A stretch of 64,000 nt of DNA from Ulva prolifera (lineage: Eukaryota; Chlorophyta; Ulvophyceae; Ulvales; Ulvaceae): assembly GCA_023078555.1 (NCBI GenBank), contig CM041197.1, positions 7,213,810 through 7,277,809 of the forward strand. The letters run 5' to 3'. Position numbers and translations under genes: made by a program. This document shows positions 1-15,557 of the stretch, in pieces; within the stretch, counting starts at the first letter, position 1, and each line of letters begins with the position of its first letter. Below the pieces are notes generated by a model. That model saw only the letters and a program-made list of their open reading frames with translations, searched no databases and was not told the DNA's origin.

Positions 1-1459
1 GCTTCCATGTCGCGCAGTCGCTGCTCGGCTGATTCGCGAACCAGCTCGGCTGCCTGCGTCGGTTGGCCGGGTCGAAGGCATGTGTTGGCAGTCACAGTGC
101 TTTTGCACGCCAGCACAGCCAATATATGGATGTCACTTGTGTCAGGTATGGCATGCAGTGCTTCGATGTCGCGCAGTCGCTGCTCGGCTGATTCGCGAAC
201 CAGCCCGGCTGATTCGCGCATCAGCTCGGCTGACGCAGCAGTTGGCCGGGTCGGGGACATCTGCCCACAGTCACAGTGCTTTTGCAGGCCAGCAAAGCGA
301 ATATATGGATGTGGGTTGGGTCAGATGTGGCTAGCAGTGCTTCCATGTCGCGCAGTCGCTGCTCGGCTGATTCGCGAACCAGCTCGGCTGCCGCGGCGGT
401 TGGCCGGGTCGGAGGCATGTGTTGGCAGTCACAGTGCTTTTGCAGGCCAGCACAGCCAATACATGGATGTCACTTGTGTCAGGTATGGCTAGCAGTGCTT
501 CCATGACGCGCAGTCGCTGCTCGGCTGATTCGCGAACCAGCTCGGCTGCCTGCGTCGGTTGGCCGGGTCAGAGGCATGTGTTGGCAGTCAAGGCGCTTTT
601 GCACGCCAGCACAGCCAATATATGGATTTGACTTGTGTCAGGTATGGCTAGCTGTGCTTCCATGTCGCGCAGTCGCAGCTCGGCTGATTCGGAAACCAGC
701 CCGGCTGATTCGCGAACCAGCTTGGCTGCCGCGGCGGTTGGCCGGGTCGGAGGCATGTGTTGGCAGTCACAGCGCTTTTGCACGCCAGCACAGCCAATAT
801 ATGGATGTGACTGTGTCAGGTATGGCTAGCAGTGCTTCCATGTTGCGCAGTCGCAGCTCGGCTGATTCGGAAGCCAGCCCGGCTGATTCGCGCATCAGCT
901 CGGCTGACGCAGCAGTTGGCCGGGTCGGGGGCATCTGCCCACTGTCACAGTACTTTTGCAGGCCAGCACAGCGAATATATGGATGTGGGTTGTGTCAGAT
1001 GTGGCTAGCAGTGCTTCCATGTCGCGCAGTCGCTGCTCGGCTGATTCGCGAACCAGCTCGGCTGCCTGCGTCGGTTGGCCGGGTCAGAGGCATGTGTTGG
1101 CAGTCAAGGCGCTTTTGCACGCCAGCACAGCCAATATATGGATTTGACTTGTGTCAGGTATGGCTAGCTGTGCTTCCATGTCGCGCAGTCGCAGCTCGGC
1201 TGATTCGGAAACCAGCCCGGCTGATTCGCGAACCAGCTTGGCTGCCGCGGCGGTTGGCCGGGTCGGAGGCATGTGTTGGCAGTCACAGCGCTTTTGCACG
1301 CCAGCACAGTCAATACATGGATGTCACTTGTGTCAGGTATGGCTAGCAGTGCTTCCATGTTGCGCAGTCGCTGCTCGGCTGATTCGCGAACCAGCTCGGC
1401 TGGCGCAGCGGTTGGCCGGGTCGGAGGCATGTGTTGGCAGTCACAGTGCTTTTGCAGGC

Positions 1460-3139
1460 CAGCACAGCCAATATATGGATGTGACTGTGTCAGGTATGGC
1501 TAGCAGTGCTTCCATGTTGCGCAGTCGCAGCTCGGCTGATTCGGAAGCCAGCCCGGCTGATTCGCGCATCAGCTCGGCTGACGCAGCAGTTGGCCGGGTC
1601 GGGGGCATCTGCCCACTGTCACAGTACTTTTGCAGGCCAGCACAGCGAATATATGGATGTGGGTTGTGTCAGATGTGGCTAGCAGTGCTTCCATGACGCG
1701 CAGTCGCTGCTCGGCTGATTCGCGAACCAGCTCGGCTGCCGCGGCGGTTGGCCGGGTCGGAGGCATGTGTTGGCAGTCACAGTGCTTTTGCACGCCAGCA
1801 CAGCCAATATATGGATGTCACTTGTGTCAGGTAGGGCTAGCAGTGCTTCCATGTCGCGCAGTCGCTGCTCGGCTGATTTGCGAACCAGCTCAGCTGCCGC
1901 GGCGGTTGGCCAGGTCGGAGGCATGTGTTGGCAGTCACAGTGCTTTTGCACGCCAGCACAGCCAGTAGATGGATGTCACTTGTGTCTAGTATGGCTTGCA
2001 GTGCTTCCATGTCGCGCAGTCGCTGCTCGGCTGATTCGCGAACCAGCTCGGCTGCCTGCGTCGGTTGGCCGGGTCAGAGGCATGTGTTGGCAGTCACAGT
2101 ACTTTTGCACGCCAGCACAGCCAATATATGGATGTGACTGTGTCAGGTATGGCTAGCAGTGCTTCCATGTTGCGCAGTCGCAGCTCGGCTGATTCGGAAG
2201 CCAGCCCGGCTGATTCGCGCATCAGCTCGGCTGACGCAGCAGTTGGCCGGGTCGGGGGCATCTGCCCACTGTCACAGTACTTTTGCAGGCCAGCACAGCG
2301 AATGTATGGATGTGGGTTGTGTCAGATGTGGCTAGCAGTGCTTCCATGACGCGCAGTCGCTGCTCGGCTGATTCGCGAACCAGCTCGGCTGCCGCGGCGG
2401 TTGGCCGGGTCGGAGGCATGTGTTGGCAGTCACAGTGCTTTTGCACGCCAGCACAGCCAATATATGGATGTCACTTGTGTCAGGTAGGGCTAGCAGTGCT
2501 TCCATGTCGCGCAGTCGCTGCTCGGCTGATTTGCGAACCAGCTCAGCTGCCGCGGCGGTTGGCCAGGTCGGAGGCATGTGTTGGCAGTCACAGTGCTTTT
2601 GCACGCCAGCACAGCCAGTAGATGGATGTCACTTGTGTCAGGTATGGCTTGCAGTGCTTCCATGTCGCGCAGTCGCTGCTCGGCTGATTCGCGAACCAGC
2701 TCGGCTGCCTGCGTCGGTTGGCCGGGTCAGAGGCATGTGTTGGCAGTCACAGTACTTTTGCACGCCAGCACAGCCAATATATGGATGTGACTGTGTCAGG
2801 TATGGCTAGCAGTGCTTCCATGTTGCGCAGTCGCAGCTCGGCTGATTCGGAAGCCAGCCCGGCTGATTCGCGCATCAGCTCGGCTGACGCAGCAGTTGGC
2901 CGGGTCGGGGGCATCTGCCCACTGTCACAGTACTTTTGCAGGCCAGCACAGCGAATATATGGATGTGGGTTGTGTCAGATGTGGCTAGCAGTGCTTCCAT
3001 GACGCGCAGTCGCTGCTCGGCTGATTCGCGAACCAGCTCGGCTGCCGCGGCGGTTGGCCGGGTCGGAGGCATGTGTTGGCAGTCACAGTGCTTTTGCACG
3101 CCAGCACAGCCAATATATGGATGTCACTTGTGTCAGGTA
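1460..3139 (+). repeat. 653-bp higher-order repeat, about 2.6 copies
   Basis: Four-monomer units (three S and one L; 4x158+21 = 653) repeat at about 1460-2112, 2113-2765 and 2766-3139, the last being cut by the inserted element. Copies are nearly identical. Visible differences include GAATATATGG versus GAATGTATGG at about 2300, and GTCTAGTATGG versus GTCAGGTATGG at about 1985. A partial earlier copy lies at about 800-1020. Each unit includes a rare form with GTGACTGTGTC, one base shorter than the usual GTGACTTGTGTC. Confidence 0.85.
3138..3139. repeat. Target-site duplication TA, left copy
   Basis: The left satellite flank reads GTGTCAGGTA and the right flank resumes as TAGGGCTAGCAG at 10214. 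Intact monomers elsewhere read GTCAGGTAGGGCTAGCAG with a single TA (for example at 1831-1832 and 11900-11901). Insertion therefore duplicated exactly the TA dinucleotide. Confidence 0.88.
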
Positions 3140-3148
3140 CGTCTGTAC
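3140..3148 (+). repeat. Left terminal inverted repeat of the 7-kb element
   Basis: CGTCTGTAC is the exact reverse complement of 10205-10213. With the flanking TA the match is 11 bp. The next inward bases differ (CTACC here, ACGTC at the other end read inward), so the inverted repeat is short. Confidence 0.82.
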
Positions 3149-3155
3149 CTACCCC

Positions 3156-3385
3156 CGCCCTTATTTCGCCCTTGGAAAGTGACATGTCGCCCTTACTGTC
3201 GCCCTTAGATTTCGCCCTTATTTAGGGTGGCACTTTTTGAAGCCTAATTAAGGGCGGCATGACTCTACACAAGGGCGGCATTAAGGGAGGCCCTTCTTTG
3301 CCATTGTATTAAGGGCGACTTGCCTTTATAGCTCTGTGCTAACGGATGGCTTTGTAATGGCGGATCCGCTCTACCCGCAAGGGCG
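3156..3385. other. Subterminal CGCCCTT / AAGGGCG motif cluster (left end)
   Basis: Five CGCCCTT copies start at 3156, 3167, 3188, 3200 and 3213. They are followed by the opposite orientation AAGGGCG at 3250, 3271, 3311 and 3379, with a one-base variant AAGGGAG at 3283. Spacings of 11, 21, 12 and 13, then 21 and 12, are close to one or two helical turns. Clustered subterminal motifs are commonly transposase-binding sites in DNA transposons; that role here is inference. Two more copies lie near the other end. Confidence 0.7.
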
Positions 3386-3417
3386 GGGAGCATCCGCCGA
3401 AAAAAAAAATGTGTGAT

Positions 3418-3482
3418 CACACCGCCGGCCGATGCCATGTGACTGCACGACACGTACGTCAACGGCATTGACCGGCGGTGTG
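3418..3482. repeat. Imperfect hairpin, about 20-bp arms
   Basis: CACACCGCCGG (from 3418) pairs with CCGGCGGTGTG (3472-3482). Pairing extends inward through GATGCC/GGCAT with small mismatches, around a loop of roughly 27 bases. It is the first of a chain of inverted repeats next to the left subterminal motif cluster. Confidence 0.8.
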
Positions 3483-3512
3483 TCGAATATGCGATATTGT
3501 GCAGCCACATAA

Positions 3513-3538
3513 TGATGACACGGGGCCCCGTGTCATCA
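3513..3538. repeat. 26-bp perfect palindrome
   Basis: The left arm TGATGACACGGGG (13 bases) is followed directly by its exact reverse complement, centred between 3525 and 3526. There is no loop, so it could extrude as a cruciform. It shares its last five bases with the next palindrome. Confidence 0.93.
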
Positions 3539-3553
3539 CCCCGCGGGGTGATG
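3534..3553. repeat. 20-bp perfect palindrome overlapping the previous one
   Basis: CATCACCCCG is followed directly by CGGGGTGATG, centred between 3543 and 3544. It overlaps the 26-bp palindrome by CATCA (3534-3538), so the two arms compete for pairing. Confidence 0.93.
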
Positions 3554-3556
3554 CTC

Positions 3557-3597
3557 AACTGTGACCATTGGTGTCCACCGGACACCAACGCACAGTT
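3557..3597. repeat. Stem-loop with two-part stem
   Basis: The inner stem TTGGTGTCC (3568-3576) pairs with GGACACCAA (3580-3588) across a 3-base loop. The outer stem AACTGTG (3557-3563) pairs with CACAGTT (3591-3597). A small internal loop separates them. This closes the palindrome chain that begins at 3418. Confidence 0.88.
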
Positions 3598-5246
3598 CAC
3601 TGCTGCGAGCCAGTGCACCTAACGCACAGCCTCGTTCCCCGCGGCACGCTGCATCGTCCAGGGGCAACTGGCCTGTTCTGTCCAGCACAAAGCAAAAGAT
3701 ACAGAAACAGCTTGATCAGTGCGCTGCTCATGGGACGACGGCTGCTCATGGACTCGGTTCGGTTTCGATGCAGACGAGTATCCTGCTCCGCTTGTGGTGC
3801 CTGAAAGGTTAGCCTGCATTTAGGCAACAAAGTCAGTGTGCATCTGTCAGATGTTTAACGCCTCGGAAAGGGTCTGCACGTGTGAAATTAGCGTACGTTG
3901 CAGGCGCTGCTAGGAATCAGTACACGGTATAGCACCCATAGACTGCTATTAGGCAGAAATCGTCCACCAATGATTTCACCACGGAAGAACGTCGCCTGGT
4001 CAGGCAAACCGTGTGTGATCGGCGAACATGTCGACATACGGTCAGTGCAACAGGATCAAACGACAGCGGAAACGCATAAAGACGACGGCCCGTACCAGAC
4101 GAGCCGAATAGTACGTTTCGTGCTTTGGCCAGTTTTCGTGAAGTTTCTAGTGTCGATGGAATCGGTGACCTGTGAAGCATTGACATTTCAATACTCGCAA
4201 AACACCTTGACACTTCACCACAGCTAGTCTACACGAAACACTGTATACAATATGAAACTTACTGAGAGCATGCGTGGTGAGTGTGCGTGTCCATTTTCGA
4301 TACAGAAATGCAGCCGACGAGCTACATTGTTGCATGCTGACAACGATAGCGGCATGCTGGGAGATACAAGATCAGCAGAAACATAGCACGTGCCATTCAT
4401 TACGTGGTTACTCCGTCGGCTACGGGGCTATGATTGACGGCGATGATGTTTGACTTCCGACGAAACCATCAGCGTGAAACTTCATCCCACGATTGGCAGC
4501 TACTAAACACATGGATCACAACCGATGCGCAGTTTGATATGAGTTGCTAGTAATCACAACTCAGGATGCTGAGAGACCGTGTGGAACTCGGGCAGTTCTT
4601 TAACATCGAAAGGCCATGTGCGCTTTTGCGCCACAACATTGCACGAATCTGTGTCAATCTGTTACACGTAGGAATCATACCTTTCTCTGTTGTTTTCTGG
4701 CGGAAGATTGGCTGCCTAGGCAGCAGCCAAGCGGTCGTGTTGCTGCTGCTAACAAACGTGTAAGTCCACACGGACAACGAGCCCTACACCTACAGTGAGC
4801 CACATTGTACTTGCTTATCAACGATGTGTAAACAAGTGACATGAGTACCGAAGCCGTATAGACATGGTCGCTGCGCATGAAACTTCGGAAACCGGCCCTC
4901 CAGAACGTACCGCAGGCATAAGAATACGTGCCATCACTGCGCACATGCGATGACCATGATGTCAGTGTTGGTACACGTCTGCGCTGATAAGAGTTTCTTC
5001 TGCGCAGTACAAAGTTGTGTGCACGCTGCAGCGATGAGTAGCTGGGACAGAGCGGAGTATGCATGCGTATGTGGCCACCAGGGCAGCCAACGTGACAACA
5101 GTGAGACACATGACAGACGGGCCTCGCAGCAGGCATTGAACCACATAGGTATCATCCGGCAGCCCCATCAGAGCGACACTGCCCATAAATGCTTAACGAT
5201 CCGGTGTCATGATGTTGCAACGCAGATTCACAGGAACACATTGAGG
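3598..5246. other. Left interior of the 7-kb element, no recognisable gene
   Basis: About 1.65 kb of single-copy, mixed-composition sequence. Open stretches reach about 150 codons on the minus strand (4675-5136) and 136 on the plus strand (4950-5360, which runs into the nested element). They show no recognisable domain, have compositions typical of chance frames and overlap one another. A 14-bp palindrome GCTGCCTAGGCAGC lies at 4711-4724. I see no tRNA, rRNA or repeat here. Confidence 0.6.
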
Positions 5247-5254
5247 CCTAGGAT
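5247..5254 (+). repeat. 8-bp target-site duplication, left copy (CCTAGGAT)
   Basis: CCTAGGAT directly precedes the nested element and recurs in the same orientation directly after it at 7138-7145. The base before each copy differs (G versus T), so the duplication is exactly 8 bp. Confidence 0.9.
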
Positions 5255-5338
5255 AGGGGGGTCTGCACTCGGGCCATGCACACGTCCACCGGGAACGCGA
5301 GCAACTCAGACATCGCCCAGGGCCCTGGGCGGTGTCTA
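5255..5338 (+). repeat. Left 84-bp terminal inverted repeat of the nested element
   Basis: Identical over all 84 bp to the reverse complement of 7054-7137. It contains the 18-bp palindrome CGCCCAGGGCCCTGGGCG at 5314-5331. Confidence 0.93.
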
Positions 5339-5481
5339 TAGACGCACAGTAAGATACTGAATGCACACAGGCGGTCCCTGGGCCTAACGTAGAAAAGTGC
5401 CCAGGGAAAGGCCTGTTTTCGGCCAAAATGCCGTTTTCGCCCATGGACGCGGATTTGGCGCCCAGCGCACGCCCAGTGAGC
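5339..5481 (+). repeat. Left subterminal region with CTGGGCG-type motifs
   Basis: Imperfect inverted homology to 6890-7053. A shared ACTGAATGCACACAGGCGGTC block lies near 5358, and an exact 21-bp match (5461-5481, starting CCCAGCGCACGCCC) pairs with 6890-6910. GCCCAG/CTGGGC motifs recur several times. Confidence 0.75.
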
Positions 5482-6889
5482 ACAGTGGGTCAAGAACACC
5501 CGAAAAACACTATAATATGTCTCATAGATGTTCAGCGACCTGTCAACCGGTGTCGTGCGGGTATGTCCGGCCTGTATGTGATGCAGCCATGGAGAGCGGA
5601 CACCACGCCGGCCTAGACCGGCTTAGCTACCACAGATTTAATTATTGATTGAAATTAAGTAACAGGCGGCATTGCTGTTTGTTTCTGCCGGAACTTGCGT
5701 GCAGTTTGTTCACCTCGTGAGCTTGCAAACAACGCAACATAGCATTCTAATGGGCCACATCAGATACATACACATAGCAGAAACACCAGCCTCACATCGC
5801 TCAAACTTAGTCATACATGTCGTTCGGGCAGTGGCGTTCTTCCGTCACAGACACTGAAAGTACGCTGCCGTACACCGGCTCATCGAAGCCACGGCAAGAA
5901 TGATCCCTGCGCGGTCTACAAATTACAGTCGACATGTTGTGTCATGATGGATATCTCATATCTTCTTCGTTTTGAAGGGCACGGAAGTGCTGCGAATCTG
6001 GCTGTGACGGCCGCGACAGCATTTTCGTTCACGCAAAAACAAAAAACAGCACTGCCGACTACGCAATGAATTATCGCTGTTCAACCTGCACCACTTGACG
6101 TGAGTGATCCGTGGACAATCAGGATGTCTTCAGTGGGCGTGATGTGGCAGATCACAGAGCCAAGCACACAAAGAGGCTGTGTGTGCAAGTCATTCTGGCT
6201 TTGCTACACCTCTGATGCAGTGCAGATTCCCATGACGGTGACGCAGAGCGCATGCTGAGTTCGTCTCGCGTACAAATTTATTGCATTGTTCTTCACAGAA
6301 GAATACAGTCAACTGCATCGGTTCTCTGTCTCTTGCACAATGCTACCAAGCAATCAGCATACAACCTGACTGGCAGTCAGTGTGTCATCGATTGCAATAC
6401 AGTCTAGATGCAACTACATGATATTATAATTTACGACAAACATGTCAGCTTTATCAACCAGGCCAGCTGCATCCACATGGTGTTGATACAATGAGCTTCA
6501 TCAACCGCCGTGCGATCAGCCTCGATCACAGTTGTCAGCATCACCAAAGGTATCCCAACTGTGCCATAATTTAAGCATTCACGCCTATTGGAGCCTGTTG
6601 TTTTATACTCATGCCATGTACTAGACAAGCCAGAATGCAATGGGGACAGAGCCGCTAGAGCATTCAACCACAGAGCGACAAACCAACCCATCCCCAGGAG
6701 TGAACAACACTTGCATTGGTTCTTGATAGCGCTCCAATCGTGCAGAGCAGCTTCCCAACAGCCTACAGGTGACAGTACATGCATGTCATGACCCCACAAG
6801 TCACAACGGCTAAGACGCCTGCCACGGCAATCGATGACATCAAAGTGAACGTCCCAACACTGAAAATATACATAATAAGGGCGTCATAG
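5482..6889. other. Core of the nested element, no recognisable gene
   Basis: About 1.4 kb, more AT-rich than the ends. The longest open stretch is 122 codons on the minus strand (6431-6799). It contains the string VDEAHC, which by chance resembles a RecQ motif, but there is no helicase context. I see no tandem repeat, RNA gene or intact transposase. Confidence 0.6.
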
Positions 6890-7053
6890 GCTCACTGGGC
6901 GTGCGCTGGGCACGCACTGGGCGCTGTAGGCGCTCCCTGGGCGAAACGGGTCATTCTGCCCAGGCATGCACACGTTTTTCGACAAAAGGGCCGCTTTCGC
7001 CCAGTGACTCAAGACGACCGCCTGTGTGCATTCAGTATGTTGTTGTGAGTCTG
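6890..7053 (-). repeat. Right subterminal region with CTGGGCG-type motifs
   Basis: Inverted, imperfect counterpart of 5339-5481. The stretch from 6891 packs CTGGGCG, CTGGGCA, CTGGGCG and CTGGGCG into about 60 bases, and CGCCCAG recurs near 7000. The 21-bp block 6890-6910 is an exact inverted match to 5461-5481. Confidence 0.75.
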
Positions 7054-7137
7054 TAGACACCGCCCAGGGCCCTGGGCGATGTCTGAGTTGCTCGCGTTCC
7101 CGGTGGACGTGTGCATGGCCCGAGTGCAGACCCCCCT
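7054..7137 (-). repeat. Right 84-bp terminal inverted repeat of the nested element
   Basis: Exact reverse complement of 5255-5338, including the 18-bp palindrome. Absence of any difference over 84 bp suggests a recent insertion or strong constraint on the ends. Confidence 0.93.
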
Positions 7138-7145
7138 CCTAGGAT
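7138..7145 (+). repeat. 8-bp target-site duplication, right copy (CCTAGGAT)
   Basis: Direct repeat of 5247-5254 immediately outside the right inverted end. Confidence 0.9.
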
Positions 7146-7169
7146 GTGGCCACAAAGTCTTCGTCACAA

Positions 7170-7706
7170 CTATGCACTGCACATTAGCTTAACATCCATA
7201 TTGGCCCTACCAAAGGCATGACATAGAGCAGTGAGCCGATCTTGCATGCGATCAGGATTGGAGTCAACCAGTGCCTTGTGCATTAAAGATTGAGCTTTGT
7301 AGGCTTGAGGAGGTTTAATCAGTCCCATCATGACCAAGCACTGATGCAAATGGGCAGGGGTGCCCGTATACAGTGTTGAGGGCACAGATCTGAGGAGACT
7401 CCTCGAGGAGACTCCGTACACGCCAGACGCAACAACACTGCGCTGAGCGATTCTCACAGTGCTGCGCGATTCTGTGTTGGCATACCCTCTGCCTTCACAC
7501 GCAGTGCAGAGGGCGTGGCACCGAACGTGCACACGTCGGGGGCAGCAGTGCTGTGGTGACAGTGTCTTTGCTGGCATGCCCTCTGTCTTACCTCGCAGTG
7601 CAGAGGGCGTGACACCGAACATGCTAACATTGGGGGCAGCAGCGCTGCAACGAGGCTGGTTACTAGGTGGAAGCATCTCTGCTGGCCAGAGTGCCAGTGG
7701 CTGCAT
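7170..7706 (-). CDS. Hypothetical open reading frame, possible gene remnant
   Basis: An uninterrupted minus-strand frame of 178 codons. I do not recognise it. The C-terminal third (about residues 105-178: GTPAHLHQCLVMM, KPPQAYKAQSLMHKALV, RMQDRLTALCHAFGR) has a balanced, helix-like composition that looks more protein-like than the rest. The N-terminal two thirds translate a 94-bp direct repeat, so two similar stretches (MFGVTPSALRGKTEGMP and VRCHALCTACEGRGYA, from different phases) appear. The 5' part runs into the first unit of the 172-bp array. It could be the last exon of a decayed element gene, or chance. There is no supporting promoter or homology. Confidence 0.2.
   Translation of the reverse strand: MQPLALWPAEMLPPSNQPRCSAAAPNVSMFGVTPSALRGKTEGMPAKTLSPQHCCPRRVHVRCHALCTACEGRGYANTESRSTVRIAQRSVVASGVYGVSSRSLLRSVPSTLYTGTPAHLHQCLVMMGLIKPPQAYKAQSLMHKALVDSNPDRMQDRLTALCHAFGRANMDVKLMCSA
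7479..7655 (+). repeat. Two-copy 94-bp direct repeat with internal hairpins
   Basis: GGCATACCCTCTGCC (7479) and GGCATGCCCTCTGTC (7573) start two diverged copies 94 bp apart. Both continue through CGCAGTGCAGAGGGCGTG, CACCGAAC and GGGGGCAGCAG. Within each copy CCCTCTG pairs with CAGAGGG around a short loop, giving a potential stem. Function unknown. Confidence 0.75.
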
Positions 7707-9341
7707 GTGATCACATCACTGACATCCACAGGAGGGCTATCTCAGCACACTGTCAGGCACGAGCACTGGCATCACCAGCCCAGCTGTATTCGTGGCCAGT
7801 TAGCGTGACAACCCCTTTGCAAAGACACTGGTGAATAGTTTGATGTATCTCTGCTGGCCAGAATACCAGTGGCTGCATGTGATCACATCACAGACATCCA
7901 CAGGAGGGCTATATAAGCACACCGTCAGGCACGAGCACTGGCATCACCAGCCCAACTGTATTCGTGGCCAGTTAGCGTAACAACCCCTTTGCAAAGACAC
8001 TGGTGAATAGTTTGATGTATCTCTGCTGGCCATAATGCCAGTGGCTGCATGTGATCACATCACTGACATCCACAGGAGGGCTATATAAGCACACCGTCAG
8101 GCACGAGCACTGGCATCACCAGCCCAGCTGTATTCGTGGCCAGTTAGCGTGACAACCCCTTTGCAAAGACACTGGTGAATAGTTTGATGTAGCTCTGCTG
8201 GCCAGAATACCAGTGGCTGCATGTGATCACATCACTGACATCCACAGGAGGGCTATCTCAGCACACCGTCAGGCACGAGCACTGGCATCACCAGCCCAGC
8301 TGTACTCGTGGTCAAAACTCGTGACAACCCCTTTGCAAAGACACTGGTGAATAGTTTGATGTATCTCTGCTGGCCATAATGCCAGTGGCTGCATGTGATC
8401 ACATCACTGACATCCACAGGAGGGCTATCTCAGCACACCGTCAGGCACGAGCACTGGCATCACCAGCCCAGCTGTATTCGTGGCCAGTTAGCGTGACAAC
8501 CCCTTTGCAAAGACACTGGTGAATAGTTTGATGTATCTCTGCTGGCCATAATGCCAGTGGCTGCATGTGATCACATCACTGACATCCACAGGAGGGCTAT
8601 ATAAGCACACCGTCAGGCACGAGCACTGGCATCACCAGCCCAGCTGTATTCGTGGCCAGTTAGCGTAACAACCCCTTTGCAAAGACACTGGTGAATAGTT
8701 TGATGTATCTCTGCTGGCCATAATGCCAGTGGCTGCATGTGATCACATCACTGACATCCACAGGAGGGCTATCTCAGCACACCGTCAGGCACGAGCACTG
8801 GCATCACCAGCCCAGCTGTATTCGTGGCCAGTTAGCGTGACAACCCCTTTGCAAAGACACTGGTGAATAGTTTGATGTATCTCTGCTGGCCAGAATACCA
8901 GTGGCTGCATGTGATCACATCACTGACATCCACAGGAGGGCTATATAAGCACACCGTCAGGCACGAGCACTGGCATCACCAGCCCAGCTGTATTCGTGGC
9001 CAGTTAGCGTGACAACCCCTTTGCAAAGACACTGGTGAATAGTTTGATGTATCTCTGCTGGCCATAATGCCAGTGGCTGCATGTGATCACATCACTGACA
9101 TCCACAGGAGGGCTATCTCAGCACACCGTCAGGCACGAGCACTGGCATCACCAGCCCAGCTGTATTCGTGGCCAGTTAGCGTGACAAACCCTCTGCAAAG
9201 AGGCTGGTAAATCGTGTGAAGCATCTCTGCTGGCCAGAATACCAGCGGCTGCATGTGATCACATCACTGACATCCACAGGAGGGCTATCTCAGCACACCG
9301 ACAAGCACTTGCATCATCTGCACAGCCGTCCTCGTGTCCAG
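7646..9341 (+). repeat. 172-bp tandem array, about ten units
   Basis: TCTCTGCTGGCCA starts units at 7676, 7848, 8020, 8192 (GCTCTG), 8364, 8536, 8708, 8880, 9052 and 9224, exactly 172 bp apart. Units differ at few sites: CAGAATACC versus CATAATGCC, and CTATCTCAGC versus CTATATAAGC. Diverged edges extend to about 7646 on the left and 9341 on the right. Each unit carries the 12-bp palindrome ATGTGATCACAT. The period is close to a nucleosome repeat. The array is unrelated to the flanking satellite and sits inside the 7-kb element. Confidence 0.95.
7910..8949 (+). promoter_or_regulatory. TATATAAG boxes in four of the 172-bp units
   Basis: TATATAAG occurs at 7910-7917, 8082-8089, 8598-8605 and 8942-8949, at the same unit position each time. 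The other units have TATCTCAG there. It resembles a TATA box on the plus strand, but no plus-strand gene follows. Promoter function is speculative; the alternation may be neutral variation. Confidence 0.2.
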
Positions 9342-9783
9342 CCGGTGTTTCCATAACCACATGGCCAGGGGGACTGATCTCCAAAGCGCCCGCAGTGGCA
9401 CTCTCATTTAGTACGAAGAGCACAGGCATCACTTGCCGCAAGCAGTGTCGTAAGAAGTCTGCAACTGTCCGTAGCCGTAGACGCTCGCGCCTGTGGTTCA
9501 TACAGTTTCCAAAGTCTCCATTGCAGATTGGTGAAGCATGATGTGCCCGAGCTTCCAAATGGCTATGTAGCAGCGATGGTGTGCCCTGCTCGTCCCTGAA
9601 CACCGTTGCAGCCGTATATTGCCGATTTTCACATACATATAATTTGCGCTGTAGAATCAGATCGTGGCGCGATCTGTGCGTGTGGGGCCTGTTCATAGAC
9701 CAGATGCTCCAGTAGCCTGCTTCGCGATGGCGCATGATGAGCTCCGCTAGAGACAACACGTCATAAAACTTTGAGCAAATTGG
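9259..9783 (-). pseudogene. Possible degenerate transposase N-terminal fragment (FLYWCH-like)
   Basis: The minus-strand frame is open from 9783 down to a stop at 9259. The first ATG in frame is at 9735, and an in-frame GTG lies at 9759. Counting from that GTG, residues 38-77 read R-K-L-Y-V-C-E-N-R-Q-Y-T-A...H-H-A-S-P. This resembles the W-x-C...C-x-A...H-x-H pattern of FLYWCH-type zinc fingers. A charged helical stretch follows (RRERLRLRTVADFLRHCLR), as often seen after this finger in Mutator-like transposases. The second cysteine would be Y48 and one histidine is lost, so the finger would be broken. The last 15-25 residues are translated from the edge of the 172-bp array, so the 3' end is foreign. 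TGTTGTCTCTAG just before codon 5 could be a splice acceptor. Alternative: a chance frame. Confidence 0.25.
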
Positions 9784-9786
9784 TCA

Positions 9787-10163
9787 ACATGTTCATAGTA
9801 GGTTTAATTCTGTATCACTGACGGATTAGCTTCTAGCGGTGACACGCAGCCGTCCTAAGCTCTGCCCAAGTGTGTCCTCAGGCTGATTGACCTCCAGAAA
9901 GGCCGCGAGTCTCCAGAGCCCAAGTTAAGCCTGAATGTAACCAAATATGTTCCCATGAAAGGATATACACGCTTTGATCGCGCTGTTCGTGAGCATCGTA
10001 ACAGCGCTGGCCGACCGAGTCATCCTCGAAGACAGGCACAGTGCAACTGCGTCCGTAGACCACAACGAACCGGATAAAGCATATCATGCATCAATATCAT
10101 ATTGAACATGGTCATTTCGGTTGAAATCACATCAAAAGGCGACTGTTTCTGCTCCGACCTATC
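9787..10163. other. Right interior of the 7-kb element, no recognisable gene
   Basis: About 380 bp of single-copy sequence. A 69-codon minus-strand frame (9878-10087) ends in LSGGQSA, but this isolated LSGGQ has no ABC-ATPase context. Nothing else is supported. Confidence 0.6.
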
Positions 10164-10185
10164 CGCCCTTGTCAGGCCCGCCCTT
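10164..10185. other. Right-end subterminal CGCCCTT motifs
   Basis: CGCCCTT at 10164-10170 and 10179-10185, 15 bp apart and about 30-50 bp from the right terminus. They echo the larger left-end cluster, so the two ends are asymmetric in motif number and arrangement. Confidence 0.65.
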
Positions 10186-10204
10186 GTAACATGAGCCAGG
10201 ACGT

Positions 10205-10213
10205 GTACAGACG
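10205..10213 (-). repeat. Right terminal inverted repeat of the 7-kb element
   Basis: GTACAGACG, the exact reverse complement of 3140-3148, is followed directly by the TA duplication and then satellite. Confidence 0.82.
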
Positions 10214-10215
10214 TA
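10214..10215. repeat. Target-site duplication TA, right copy
   Basis: TA followed by GGGCTAGCAG, the expected continuation of the interrupted satellite monomer. Confidence 0.88.
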
Positions 10216-12859
10216 GGGCTAGCAGTGCTTCCATGTCGCGCAGTCGCTGCTCGGCTGATTCGGGAACCAGCCCGGCTGATTCGCGCATCAGCTCGGCTGA
10301 CGCAGCACTTGGCCGGGTCGGGGGCACCTGCCCACTGTCACAGTACTTTTGCAGGCCAGCATAGCGAATATATGGATGTGGGTTGGGTCAGATGTGGCTA
10401 GCAGTGCTTCCATGTCGCGCAGTCGCTGTTCGGCTGATTCGCGAACCAGCTCGGCTGGCGCAGCGGTTGGCCGGGTCAGAGGCATGTGTTGGCAGTCACA
10501 GCGCTTTTGCACGCCAGCACAGCCAATATATGGATGTGACTTGTGTCAGGTATGGCTAGCAGTGCTTCCATGTTGCGCAGTCGCTGCTCGGCTGATTCGG
10601 GAACCAGCCCGGCTGATTCGCGCATCAGCTCGGCTGACGCAGCACTTGGCCGGGTCGGGGGCACCTGCCCACAGTCACAGTGCTTTTGCAGGCCAGCACA
10701 GCGAATATATGGATGTGGGTTGTGTCAGATGTGGCTAGCAGTGCTTCCATGTCGCGCAGTCGCTGCTCGGCTGATTCGCGAACCAGCTCGGCTGGCGCAG
10801 CGGTTGGCCGGGTCAGAGGCATGTGTTGGCAGTCACAGCGCTTTTGCACGCCAGCACAGCCAATATATGGATGTGACTTGTGTCAGGTATGGCTAGCAGT
10901 GCTTCCATGTTGCGCAGTCGCAGCTCGGATGAATCGGAAACCAGCCCAGCTGATTCGCGCATCAGCTCGGCTGACGCAGCAGTTGGCCGGGTCGGGGGCA
11001 TCTGCCCACAGTCACAGTGCTTTTGCAGGCCAGCACAGCGAGTATATGGATGTGGGTTTTGTCAGGTATGGCTAGCAGTGCTTCCATGTCGCACAGTCGC
11101 TGCTCGGCTGATTCGGGAACCAGCCCGGCTGATTCGCGCATCAGCTCGGCTGACGCAGCAGTTGGCCGGGGCGGAGACATCTGCCCACAGTCACAGTGCT
11201 TTTCTAGGCCAGCACAGCGAATATATGGATGTGGGTTGGGTCAGATGTGGCTAGCAGTGCTTCCATGTCGCGCAGTCGCTGCTCGGCTGATTCGCGAACC
11301 AGCTCGGCTGCCGCGGCGGTTGGCCGGGTCGGAGGCATGTGTTGGCAGTCACAGTGCTTTTGCAGGCCAGCACAGCCAATACATGGATGTCACTTGTGTC
11401 AGGTATGGCTAGCAGTGCTTCCATGTCGCGCAGTCGCTGCTCGGCTGATTCGCGAACCAGCTCGGCTGCCTGCGTCGGTTGGCCGGGTCAGAGGCATGTG
11501 TTGGCAGTCACAGCGCTTTTGCACGCCAGCACAGCCAATATATGGATGTGACTTGTGTCAGGTATGGCTAGAAGTGCTTCCATGTTGCGCATTCGCTGCT
11601 CGGCTGATTCGGAAGCCAGCCCGGCTGATTCGCGCATCAGCTCGGCTGACGCAGCAGTTGGCCGGGTCGGGGGCATCTGCCCACTGTCACAGTGCTTTTG
11701 CAGGCCAGCACAGCGAATATATGGATGTGGGTTGTGTCAGATGTGGCTAGCAGTGCTTCCATGACGCGCGGTCGCTGCTCGGCTGATTCGCGAACCAGCT
11801 CGGCTGCCGCGGCGGTTGGCCGGGTCGGAGGCATGTGTTGGCAGTCACAGTGCTTTTGCACGCCAGCACAGCCAATATATGGATGTTACTTGTGTCAGGT
11901 AGGGCTAGCAGTGCTTCCATGTCGCGCAGTCGCTGCTCGGCTGATTCGGGAACCAGCCCGGCTGATTCGCGCATCAGCTCGGCTGACGCAGCAGTTGGCC
12001 GGGTCGAGGACATCTGCCCACAGTCACAGTGCTTTTGCAGGCCAGCACAGCGAATATATGGATGTGGGTTGTGTCAGATGTGGCTAGCAGTGCTTCCATG
12101 ACGCGCAGTCGCTGCTTGGCTGATTCGCGAACCAGCTCGGCTGCCGCGGCGGTTGGCCGGGTCGGGGCATGTGTTGGCAGTCACAGTGCTTTTGCACGCC
12201 ACCACAGCCATTATATGGATGTGACTTGTGTCAGGTAGGGCTAGCAGTGCTTCCATGTCGCGCAGTCGCTGCTCGGCTGATTCGGGAACCAGCCCGGCTG
12301 ATTCGCGCATCAGCTCGGCTGACGCAGCAGTTGGCCGGGTCGAGGACATCTGCCCACAGTCACAGTGCTTTTGCAGGCCAGCACAGCGAATATATGGATG
12401 TGGGTTGTGTCAGATGTGGCTAGCAGTGCTTCCATGACGCGCAGTCGCTGCTTGGCTGATTCGCGAACCAGCTCGGCTGCCGCGGCGGTTGGCCGGGTCG
12501 GAGGCATGTGTTGGCAGTCACAGTGCTTTTGCACGCCAGCACAGCCAATACATGGATGTCACTTGTGTCAGGTATGGCTTGCAGTGCTTCCATGTCGCGC
12601 AGTCGCTGCTCGGCTGATTCGCGAACCAGCTCGGCTGGCGCAGCGGTTGGCCGGGTCAGAGGCATGTATTGGCAGTCACAGCGCTTTTGCACGCCAGCAC
12701 AGCCATTATATGGATTTGACTTGTGTCAGGTAGGGCTAGCAGTGCTTCCATGTAGCGCAGTCGCTGCTCGGCTGATTCGGGAACCAGCCCGGCTGATTCG
12801 CGCATCAGCTCGGCTGACGCAGCACTTGGCCGGGTCGGGGGCACCTGCCCACAGTCACA

Positions 12860-15557
12860 GTGCTTTTGCAGGCCAGCACAGCGAATATATGGATGTGGGT
12901 TGTGTCAGATGTGGCTAGCAGTGCTTCCATGTCGCGCAGTCGCTGCTCGGCTGATTCGCGAACCAGCTCGGCTGGCGCAGCGGTTGGCCGGGTCAGAGGC
13001 ATGTGTTGGCAGTCACAGCGCTTTTGCACGCCAGCACAGCCAATATATGGATGTGACTTGTGTCAGGTATGGCTAGCAGTGCTTCCATGTTGCGCAGTCG
13101 CAGCTCGGATGAATCGGAAACCAGCCCAGCTGATTCGCGCATCAGCTCGGCTGACGCAGCAGTTGGCCGGGTCGGGGGCATCTGCCCACAGTCACAGTGC
13201 TTTTGCAGGCCAGCACAGCGAGTATATGGATGTGGGTTGTGTCAGATATGGCTAGCAGTGCTTCCATGTCGCACAGTCGCTGCTCGGCTGATTCGGGAAC
13301 CAGCCCGGCTGATTCGCGCATCAGCTCGGCTGACGCAGCAGTTGGCCGGGGCGGGGACATCTGCCCACAGTCACAGTGCTTTTGCAGGCCAGCACAGCGA
13401 ATATATGGATCTGGGTTGGGTCAGATGTGGCTAGCAGTGCTTCCATGTCGCGCAGTCGCTGCTCGGCTGATTCGCGAACCAGCTCGGCTGCCGCGGCGGT
13501 TGGCCGGGTCGGAGGCATGTGTTGGCAGTCACAGTGCTTTTGCAGGCCAGCACAGCCAATACATGGATGTCACTTGTGTCAGGTATGGCTAGCAGTGCTT
13601 CCATGTCGCGCAGTCGCTGCTCGGCTGATTCGGGAACCAGCCCGGCTGATTCGCGCATCAGCTCGGCTGACGCAGCAGTTGGCCGGGTCGAGGACATCTG
13701 CCCACTGTCACAGTGCTTTTTCAGGCCAGCACAGCGAATATATGGATGTGGGTTGTGTCAGATGTGGCTAGCAGTGCTTCCATGACGCGCAGTCGCTGCT
13801 CGGCTGATTCGCGAACCAGCTCGGCTGCCGCGGCGGTTGGCCGGGTCGGAGGCATGTGTTGGCAGTCACAGTGCTTTTGCACGCCAGCACAGCCAATATA
13901 TGGATGTTACTTGTGTCAGGTAGGGCTAGCAGTGCTTCCATGTCGCGCAGTCCCTGCTCGGCTGATTCGGGAACCAGCCCGGCTGATTCGCGCATCAGCT
14001 CGGCTGACGCAGCAGTTGGCCGGGTCGAGGACATCTGCCCACAGTCACAGTGCTTTTCTAGGCCAGCACAGCGAATATATGGATGTGGGTTGTGTCAGAT
14101 GTGGCTAGCAGTGCTTCCATGACGCGCAGTCGCTGCTTGGCTGATTCGCGAACCAGCTCGGCTGCCGCGGCGGTTGGCCGGGTCGGAGGCATGTGTTGGC
14201 AGTCACAGCGCTTTTGCACGCCAGCACAGCCATTATATGGATGTGACTTGTGTCAGGTAGGGCTAGCAGTGCTTCCATGTCGCGCAGTCGCTGCTCGGCT
14301 GATTCGCGAACCAGCTCGGCTGCCTGCGTCGGTTGGCCGGGTCGGAGGCATGTGTTGGCAGTCACAGTGCTTTTGCACGCCAGCACAGCCAATATATGGA
14401 TGTTACTTGTGTCAGGTAGGGCTAGCAGTGCTTCCATGTAGCGCAGTCGCTGCTCGGCTGATTCGGGAACCAGCCCGGCTGATTCGCGCATCAGCTCGGC
14501 TGACGCAGCACTTGGCCGGGTCGGGGGCACCTGCCCACAGTCACAGTGCTTTTGCAGGCCAGCACAGCGAATATATGGATGTGGGTTGTGTCAGATGTGG
14601 CTAGCAGTGCTTCCATGTCGCGCAGTCGCTGCTCGGCTGATTCGCGAACCAGCTCGGCTGGCGCAGCGGTTGGCCGGGTCAGAGGCATGTGTTGGCAGTC
14701 ACAGCGCTTTTGCACGCCAGCACAGCCATTATATGGATTTGACTTGTGTCAGGTAGGGCTAGCAGTGCTTCCATGTAGCGCAGTCGCTGCTCGGCTGATT
14801 CGGGAACCAGCCCGGCTGATTCGCGCATCAGCTCGGCTGACGCAGCACTTGGCCGGGTCGGGGGCACCTGCCCACAGTCACAGTGCTTTTGCAGGCCAGC
14901 ACAGCGAATATATGGATGTGGGTTGTGTCAGATGTGGCTAGCAGTGCTTCCATGTCGCGCAGTCGCTGCTCGGCTGATTCGCGAACCAGCTCGGCTGGCG
15001 CAGCGGTTGGCCGGGTCAGAGGCATGTGTTGGCAGTCACAGCGCTTTTGCACGCCAGCACAGCCAATATATGGATGTGACTTGCGTCAGGTATGGCTAGC
15101 AGTGCTTCCATGTTGCGCAGTCGCAGCTCGGATGAATCGGAAACCAGCCCAGCTGATTCGCGCATCAGCTCGGCTGACGCAGCACTTGGCCGGGTCGGGG
15201 GCACCTGCCCACAGTCACAGTGCTTTTGCAGGCCAGCACAGCGAATATATGGATGTGGGTTGTGTCAGATGTGGCTAGCAGTGCTTCCATGTCGCGCAGT
15301 CGCTGCTCGGCTGATTCGCGAACCAGCTCGGCTGGCGCAGCGGTTGGCCGGGTCAGAGGCATGTGTTGGCAGTCACAGCGCTTTTGCACGCCAGCACAGC
15401 CAATATATGGATGTGACTTGTGTCAGGTATGGCTAGCAGTGCTTCCATGTTGCGCAGTCGCAGCTCGGATGAATCGGAAACCAGCCCAGCTGATTCGCGC
15501 ATCAGCTCGGCTGACGCAGCAGTTGGCCGGGTCGGGGGCATCTGCCCACAGTCACAG
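12860..15557 (+). repeat. 337-bp S+L dimer region
   Basis: In this stretch S and L monomers often alternate, giving a 337-bp period (158+179). The clearest run is about 14546-15557, with three consecutive 337-bp steps (14546, 14883, 15220, 15557); another step starts at 12860. A similar run occurs at about 21722-22733. Confidence 0.8.

Follow-up and report, generated by a model that had tools for sequence, protein, structure and literature searches.

What kind of element interrupts the satellite DNA in a 64,000-nucleotide stretch of the Ulva prolifera genome (contig CM041197.1; the whole stretch is called the window below), and what kind of transposase moved it there? The window lies at C2:7213810-7277809 of the searched genome, which comprises 88.9 Mb in 44 contigs. 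This genome encodes a family of chlorophyll a/b-binding proteins (38 matches); the member compared with solved structures matched LHCII-type chlorophyll a/b-binding proteins, ranked behind two long LHCI fusions of a single entry, all from green algae and land plants, so that the plastid of this alga is of the green lineage. A first-pass annotation had delimited an insertion flanked by TA and had linked it to the IS630-Tc1-mariner style of integration; the insertion has stood, the link has not. Our best reading places the window element, which is non-autonomous, in a new EnSpm/Plavaka-like family that Pfam does not see. It is likely that the insertion is a non-autonomous cut-and-paste transposon, and that long relatives elsewhere in the genome supply a transposase of the CMCT type (the EnSpm/Plavaka/Transib clade).

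The element and its target site

The transposon extends from 3140 to 10213 on the plus strand and is 7,074 bp long, or 5,183 bp when a nested element and the extra 8-bp duplication are subtracted. Its 9-bp terminal inverted repeats read CGTCTGTAC, at 3140..3148 on the plus strand and at 10205..10213 on the minus strand, and a TA abuts on either side. Judged by the boundary and by comparison with the family, these TAs (3138..3139 and 10214..10215) are the two copies of a 2-bp target-site duplication. When the flanks are rejoined with one TA they form a 120-base site, which finds its best ungapped satellite match at 11842-11961, identical in 119/120 bases and with the TA at 11900-11901. If both TAs are kept the best match falls to 97/122 (satellite right of the element only). 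The insertion is confirmed as a genuine transposon with the boundaries first noted, and the proposal that unbroken monomers elsewhere in the satellite act as paralogous empty sites is borne out by the match at 11900-11901.

The family in the genome

Searches with the outer 300 bp gave 25 scored candidates genome-wide for the left end and 29 for the right end. Exact left termini occur 23 times, and 26 times when up to 2 mismatches are allowed (a reversed control pattern gave 1); among these 26, C1:606504 and C6:2610199 are absent from the left 300-bp search. Exact right termini also number 23, rising to 29 when up to 3 mismatches are allowed, while the control pattern gave 0. The size of the family is about 25 copies. 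Twenty-one of them, the window copy included, were compared end to end and had been chosen because both ends matched. Outside this set are a 29-kb pair on C1 near 9.3 Mb, lone ends on C5, C9, C3, C7 and C1, and a long copy at C1:3.97-3.98 Mb which is covered only through one partial locus, L064. Termini with one or two changes occur outside the set, at C1:3984084 and C1:9285923.

The boundaries of the window copy recur throughout the set: the 9-bp ends, of the form CGT..ACG, are identical in 21/21 copies, partly as a result of the selection. A 2-bp duplication is found in 20/21 copies and a 3-bp duplication in 0/21; the chance of at least 20 of 21 2-bp duplications, at 1/16 each, is 1.6 × 10−23. 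The 20 duplicated pairs are TA (4), AT (4), GT (3), AG (2), TC (2) and one each of TT, AC, GC, GA and AA. Because ten different pairs are found among the 20 duplications, the TA of the window copy is chance, one outcome among many. The expectation that other copies would be flanked by a duplicated TA thus holds for the length of the duplication and fails for its sequence. There is a weak symmetric preference for a C-NN-G target context: a C precedes the duplicated pair in 13/20 and a G follows it in 11/20. One copy (L051, C1:734070-738254) is inserted in the right end of another family copy, in the opposite orientation, and duplicated GA.

The set comprises 12 copies of the window-type short subfamily, 8 of the long type or deletion derivatives of it, and 1 that is short and diverged. 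The copies compared span 1.8 to 16.4 kb, their size having been altered by internal deletions, nested insertions and tandem arrays of variable length. The length of 7,074 bp, which the first-pass annotation had thought unlike that of common IS630-Tc1-mariner members, is correct for the window copy and does not hold as a trait of the family.

The longest copy and its gene

A full-length copy with a transposase had been named as the thing to look for. The longest copy, C2:6756451-6772853 (L057+L058), measures 16,403 bp and carries a putative transposase gene on its minus strand. The first seven exons of this gene run from element position 11697 to 8285, interrupted by six GT-AG introns of 101-199 bp, and when spliced they encode 870 amino acids with no stop. 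The full protein would be longer, an estimated 1,400 amino acids or so, because downstream frames of 207 and 314 amino acids also match a diverged relative, L063 (C2:2280276-2284904), with 30% identity over 124 and 32% over 302 amino acids.

The L063 protein is 35% identical to the spliced protein over 507 columns. The two genes have six intron phases in common, the L063 gene having one extra intron, and exons of 113, 235 and 146 bp are identical in length. Both proteins have kept GLFxDK, D(S/T)xEA, GC(I/L)xC, WGxDxLHHxxLG, KxHxxxVHA and ExxHxxxKxAxRxTN. In both, the D in GLF(Y/F)DK is followed by the D in D(S/T)xEA, by C(2)C, by WGxDxLHHxxLG, by H(4)H and by the E in ExxHxxxKxAxRxTN; the C(2)C (CILC/CLIC) and the H(4)H (HMVVVH/HIILVH) lie between DSVEA/DTPEA and YEKHH/FESAH. 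Passages of PMC12730594 report the succession D, D, C(2)C, H(4)H, E for the EnSpm/Plavaka/Transib clade, and from this order the D and E residues may be assigned as catalytic. When the L063 protein was compared to Pfam it matched Plavaka with an E-value of 0.0015 (18.3 bits) and no other family up to E 10. The best stretch of this match, residues 325-364, spans the first D.

Other diverged relatives of the gene are present in the genome. The relative at C4:8013806 has 50% identity in the first exon and 42-54% in two more, with no stops. L063 itself (C2:2280276) forms a group with C1:10558924 and C2:2133299, at 38-39% in the first exon, and C1:10558924 has stops in some exons. A group of ten places (C1:6593429 etc.) matches at 28-48% over several exons, with no stops in the matched pieces. 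Single-exon matches are found at C9:3388869 and, with a stop, at C1:12026263. In viral contigs 0 relatives were confirmed of 96 pattern matches. Among solved structures there were only weak matches, to a zinc-finger protein (RanBP-type/C3HC4) around the C(2)C motif (E 0.019-0.14) and to a RhoGAP (E 0.3-1.2), and both were judged to be chance.

The transposase gene is present in 1/21 end-to-end copies. The frames of at least 200 amino acids in the other 20 copies belong to the other genes of the long type or to the minus-strand gene itself, in its downstream part. The exceptions are two window-type copies, L059+L060 (C3:44683-56803) and L061+L062 (C2:8642913-8654411), which measure 11-12 kb and have Copia-like frames, recognized by eye, one Copia-type polyprotein-like frame being 1,931 amino acids long. 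The second long copy, on C1 (L064, partial), has its gene damaged by stops.

Internal deletion derivatives are the expected product of gap repair after excision. The longest copy has seven such derivatives, with main blocks 96-100% identical to it: five measure 8.8-9.3 kb, and the remaining two 10.5 and 4.7 kb. In the five copies of about 9 kb the left part is 99.5-99.6% identical to that of the long copy, which suggests that the family has been active recently.

The plus-strand genes of the long copy have genome matches only at 75-99% identity and at family places; the match at C1:12162177 is near a lone right end, C1:12168116. Element positions 13422-14352 on the plus strand contain frames with HW..FVFDSL..VPQQ..NTCG. 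The order HW, DSL, PQQ, CG is, by eye, like that of a C48 (Ulp1) cysteine protease, which we take as a lead only; the C48-like frame has no match to Pfam C48 and none to a solved structure. Other frames of the long copies gave only sub-threshold Pfam matches, the best with E 0.037.

Comparison with known transposons

CACTA transposons typically have short subterminal repeats and comprise long elements alongside many short derivatives, and the present family has the same features. It also resembles EnSpm/CACTA in the order of its transposase motifs, as this order is defined in passages of PMC12730594. EnSpm/CACTA proper, however, makes a 3-bp duplication and has CAC..GTG ends, which is at variance with the 2-bp duplications and the CGT..ACG ends found here, and none of this family's places is matched by Pfam Transposase_21. 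ESTA, an EnSpm-like group of fungi, is similar in its 2-bp duplication and its CMCT motifs but duplicates TA (passages of PMC12730594), whereas ten different pairs are found here.

According to the same passages the fungal PlavakaA duplicates 2 bp and PlavakaB 2 or 3 bp, and their termini are TGT..ACA or CATCA..TGATG. The family shares the 2-bp duplication, and its diverged relative L063 matches Pfam Plavaka weakly. The ends are different, CGT..ACG and not the TGT..ACA by which PlavakaA is defined, and the Pfam Plavaka model is blind to the protein of the family's own long copy. Altogether the family behaves as CMCT elements do and probably belongs with them, but it is neither EnSpm proper nor PlavakaA. 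The kind is already known: PMC12633428 reports 'EnSpm-Plavaka' families in the green alga Auxenochlorella. No published family with these ends was found by title or abstract start among the matches listed, Repbase not included, and the passages of PMC12730594, PMC12633428 and PMC8226300 contain no description of such ends.

KDZ, Harbinger, piggyBac and hAT are ruled out by the length of the duplication, which is 2 bp in 20/21 copies and 3 bp or 5-9 bp in 0/21; Zisupton, of KDZ, has an 8-bp duplication. The duplication lengths used for this exclusion are in part general background.

Weighing the explanations

Several observations weigh against the preferred reading, a cut-and-paste transposon moved by a CMCT-type transposase. 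The splice model of the long-copy gene was made manually: a first choice of acceptor gave stops and was re-chosen to keep the frame open, and the last exon of the 870-amino-acid model ends at an arbitrary point. The splice model of L063 was made with the long-copy model in view. The Plavaka match of L063 is below the curated cut-off (18.3 vs 26.3 bits), and the 870-amino-acid protein matches no Pfam family up to E 10. Pfam Plavaka, run over the whole genome exon by exon, gave 0 matches (1/14 control genomes matched, below the cut-off), and Transposase_21 gave one weak match in the genome, at C1:7017852, with E 0.0325, below the cut-off and off the family places. The ends are CGT..ACG in 21/21 copies, at variance with the CA..TG which is usual, though not universal, in the CMCT clade (passages of PMC12730594). 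Finally, one copy (L048), which adjoins the apparent right end of another copy, is without a 2-bp duplication; it is also the 1/21 that shows a 4-bp agreement at its ends.

The IS630-Tc1-mariner model postulates an element, or a derivative of one, which inserts at TA. The TA at the window copy and the TA in 4/20 duplications agree with it, but 16/20 are other pairs (GC, GT, AG, TC, GA etc.), and the model is rejected on these duplications of many sequences. Moreover, IS630-Tc1-mariner transposases are of a short DDE/D type without C(2)C..H(4)H, whereas the putative transposase of the long copy exceeds 870 amino acids and contains both C(2)C and H(4)H. We give this model next to no probability, while the accompanying suggestion that the family is undescribed is probably right. 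A different proposal is that the transposase belongs to a DDE lineage outside CMCT in which C(2)C and H(4)H have arisen independently, i.e., a new superfamily. The lack of a Pfam match for the long-copy protein, termini unlike those of EnSpm or Plavaka, and the weak, sub-threshold match of L063 all fit such a lineage. The complete order D, D, C(2)C, H(4)H, E is kept in L063, however, and the best stretch of its Plavaka match covers the first D, and we consider a new superfamily unlikely.

It could also be supposed that the ends are those of a different autonomous family, one not seen here, and that the 16.4-kb copy carries its gene as a passenger. This would agree with the presence of the gene in a single end-to-end copy and with the damage to the second, partial long copy. 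The gene recurs, however, in several diverged groups of the genome, one of them at ten places, and the frames of at least 200 amino acids in the other 20 copies are genes of the long type, the downstream part of the same gene or, in the two copies mentioned, Copia-like; a passenger gene is very improbable. Transposition by a CMCT-type transposase of the long copies is the explanation we prefer.

Anatomy of the window copy

No coding part can be recognised in the window copy, which is non-autonomous: stop-to-stop frames of at least 200 amino acids are absent from it (the longest is 181), and it contains nothing of the transposase gene found in the long copy. Its first 123 bp are 98% identical to the longest copy and its last 1.5 kb 97%. 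The left subterminal 300 bp (3140..3439) contain 10 occurrences of GCCCTT or its complement, compared to 0.14 per 300 bp in the interior, where 3 are spread across 6.5 kb. The last 300 bp (9914..10213), a right end common to other copies, hold 2, at 10165 and 10180.

By genome search the segment 3440..5254 is an interior specific to the short subfamily. Elsewhere it is found at family places and, in one of the 20 rows of that search, at C3:4765249-4766755, which is without a listed terminus and is 92% identical to part of the query. Capture of a host gene as the origin of this interior was considered and is not shown by these rows. Further to the right are a 94-bp tandem repeat of 1.9 copies (7471..7647) and a 172-bp tandem array of 9.5 copies (7675..9308). 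The array is present in both short and long types, and its repeat number differs between copies.

A transposon of 1,883 bp is nested at 5255..7137. It has 122-nt inverted ends, 96% identical, which begin AGGGGGGTCTGC, and it is flanked by an 8-bp target-site duplication, CCTAGGAT, at 5247..5254 and 7138..7145. The other window-type copies align up to 5254 in 11/11 cases and resume at 7138 in 9/11, with the 8 bp present once; for L051 and L061+L062 there is no piece at 7138 among the matches listed, from which short pieces were filtered. Elsewhere in the genome at least 23 other copies reach from base 1 to base 1883 (best 40 of 178 candidates), and among the matches listed they fall into two identity classes, 11 at 95-98% and 12 at 81-85%. 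The nested element is an independent, non-autonomous transposon unrelated to its host element.

Nearly all of the window outside the element (1-3137 and 10216-64000) is occupied by the satellite, which is built of units of about 158 and 179 bp that differ by a 21-bp subrepeat, with higher-order periods of 316, 337, 474 and 495 bp. No RNA genes or tRNA were found in the window.

A model for transposition

The transposase from the long copies would recognise the 9-bp inverted ends of the window copy in trans, and the GCCCTT-rich subterminal repeats may be its binding sites. It would excise the element and insert it at a cut with a presumed 2-bp stagger, in nearly free sequence, which would leave the 2-bp duplication. 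The window copy would have kept both ends, expanded its 172-bp array, and later gained the unrelated 1,883-bp transposon.

Implications

For the genome itself the finding is ordinary transposon biology, with no host function indicated. It adds a family, perhaps a lineage, to a clade which is best described from fungi, plants and animals. We put forward only tentatively, as a possibility we somewhat doubt, that green-lineage algae harbour a separate unnamed lineage of the CMCT type, which would end in CGT..ACG, duplicate 2 bp within a weak C-NN-G context, encode a Pfam-invisible transposase whose C-terminal domain, some 300 amino acids long, is conserved and, in this family, have an associated gene for a C48-like (Ulp1-like) protease. 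If such a lineage exists, the CA..TG end rule of the clade would be shown to be dispensable, and some unclassified green-algal repeats would gain a name.

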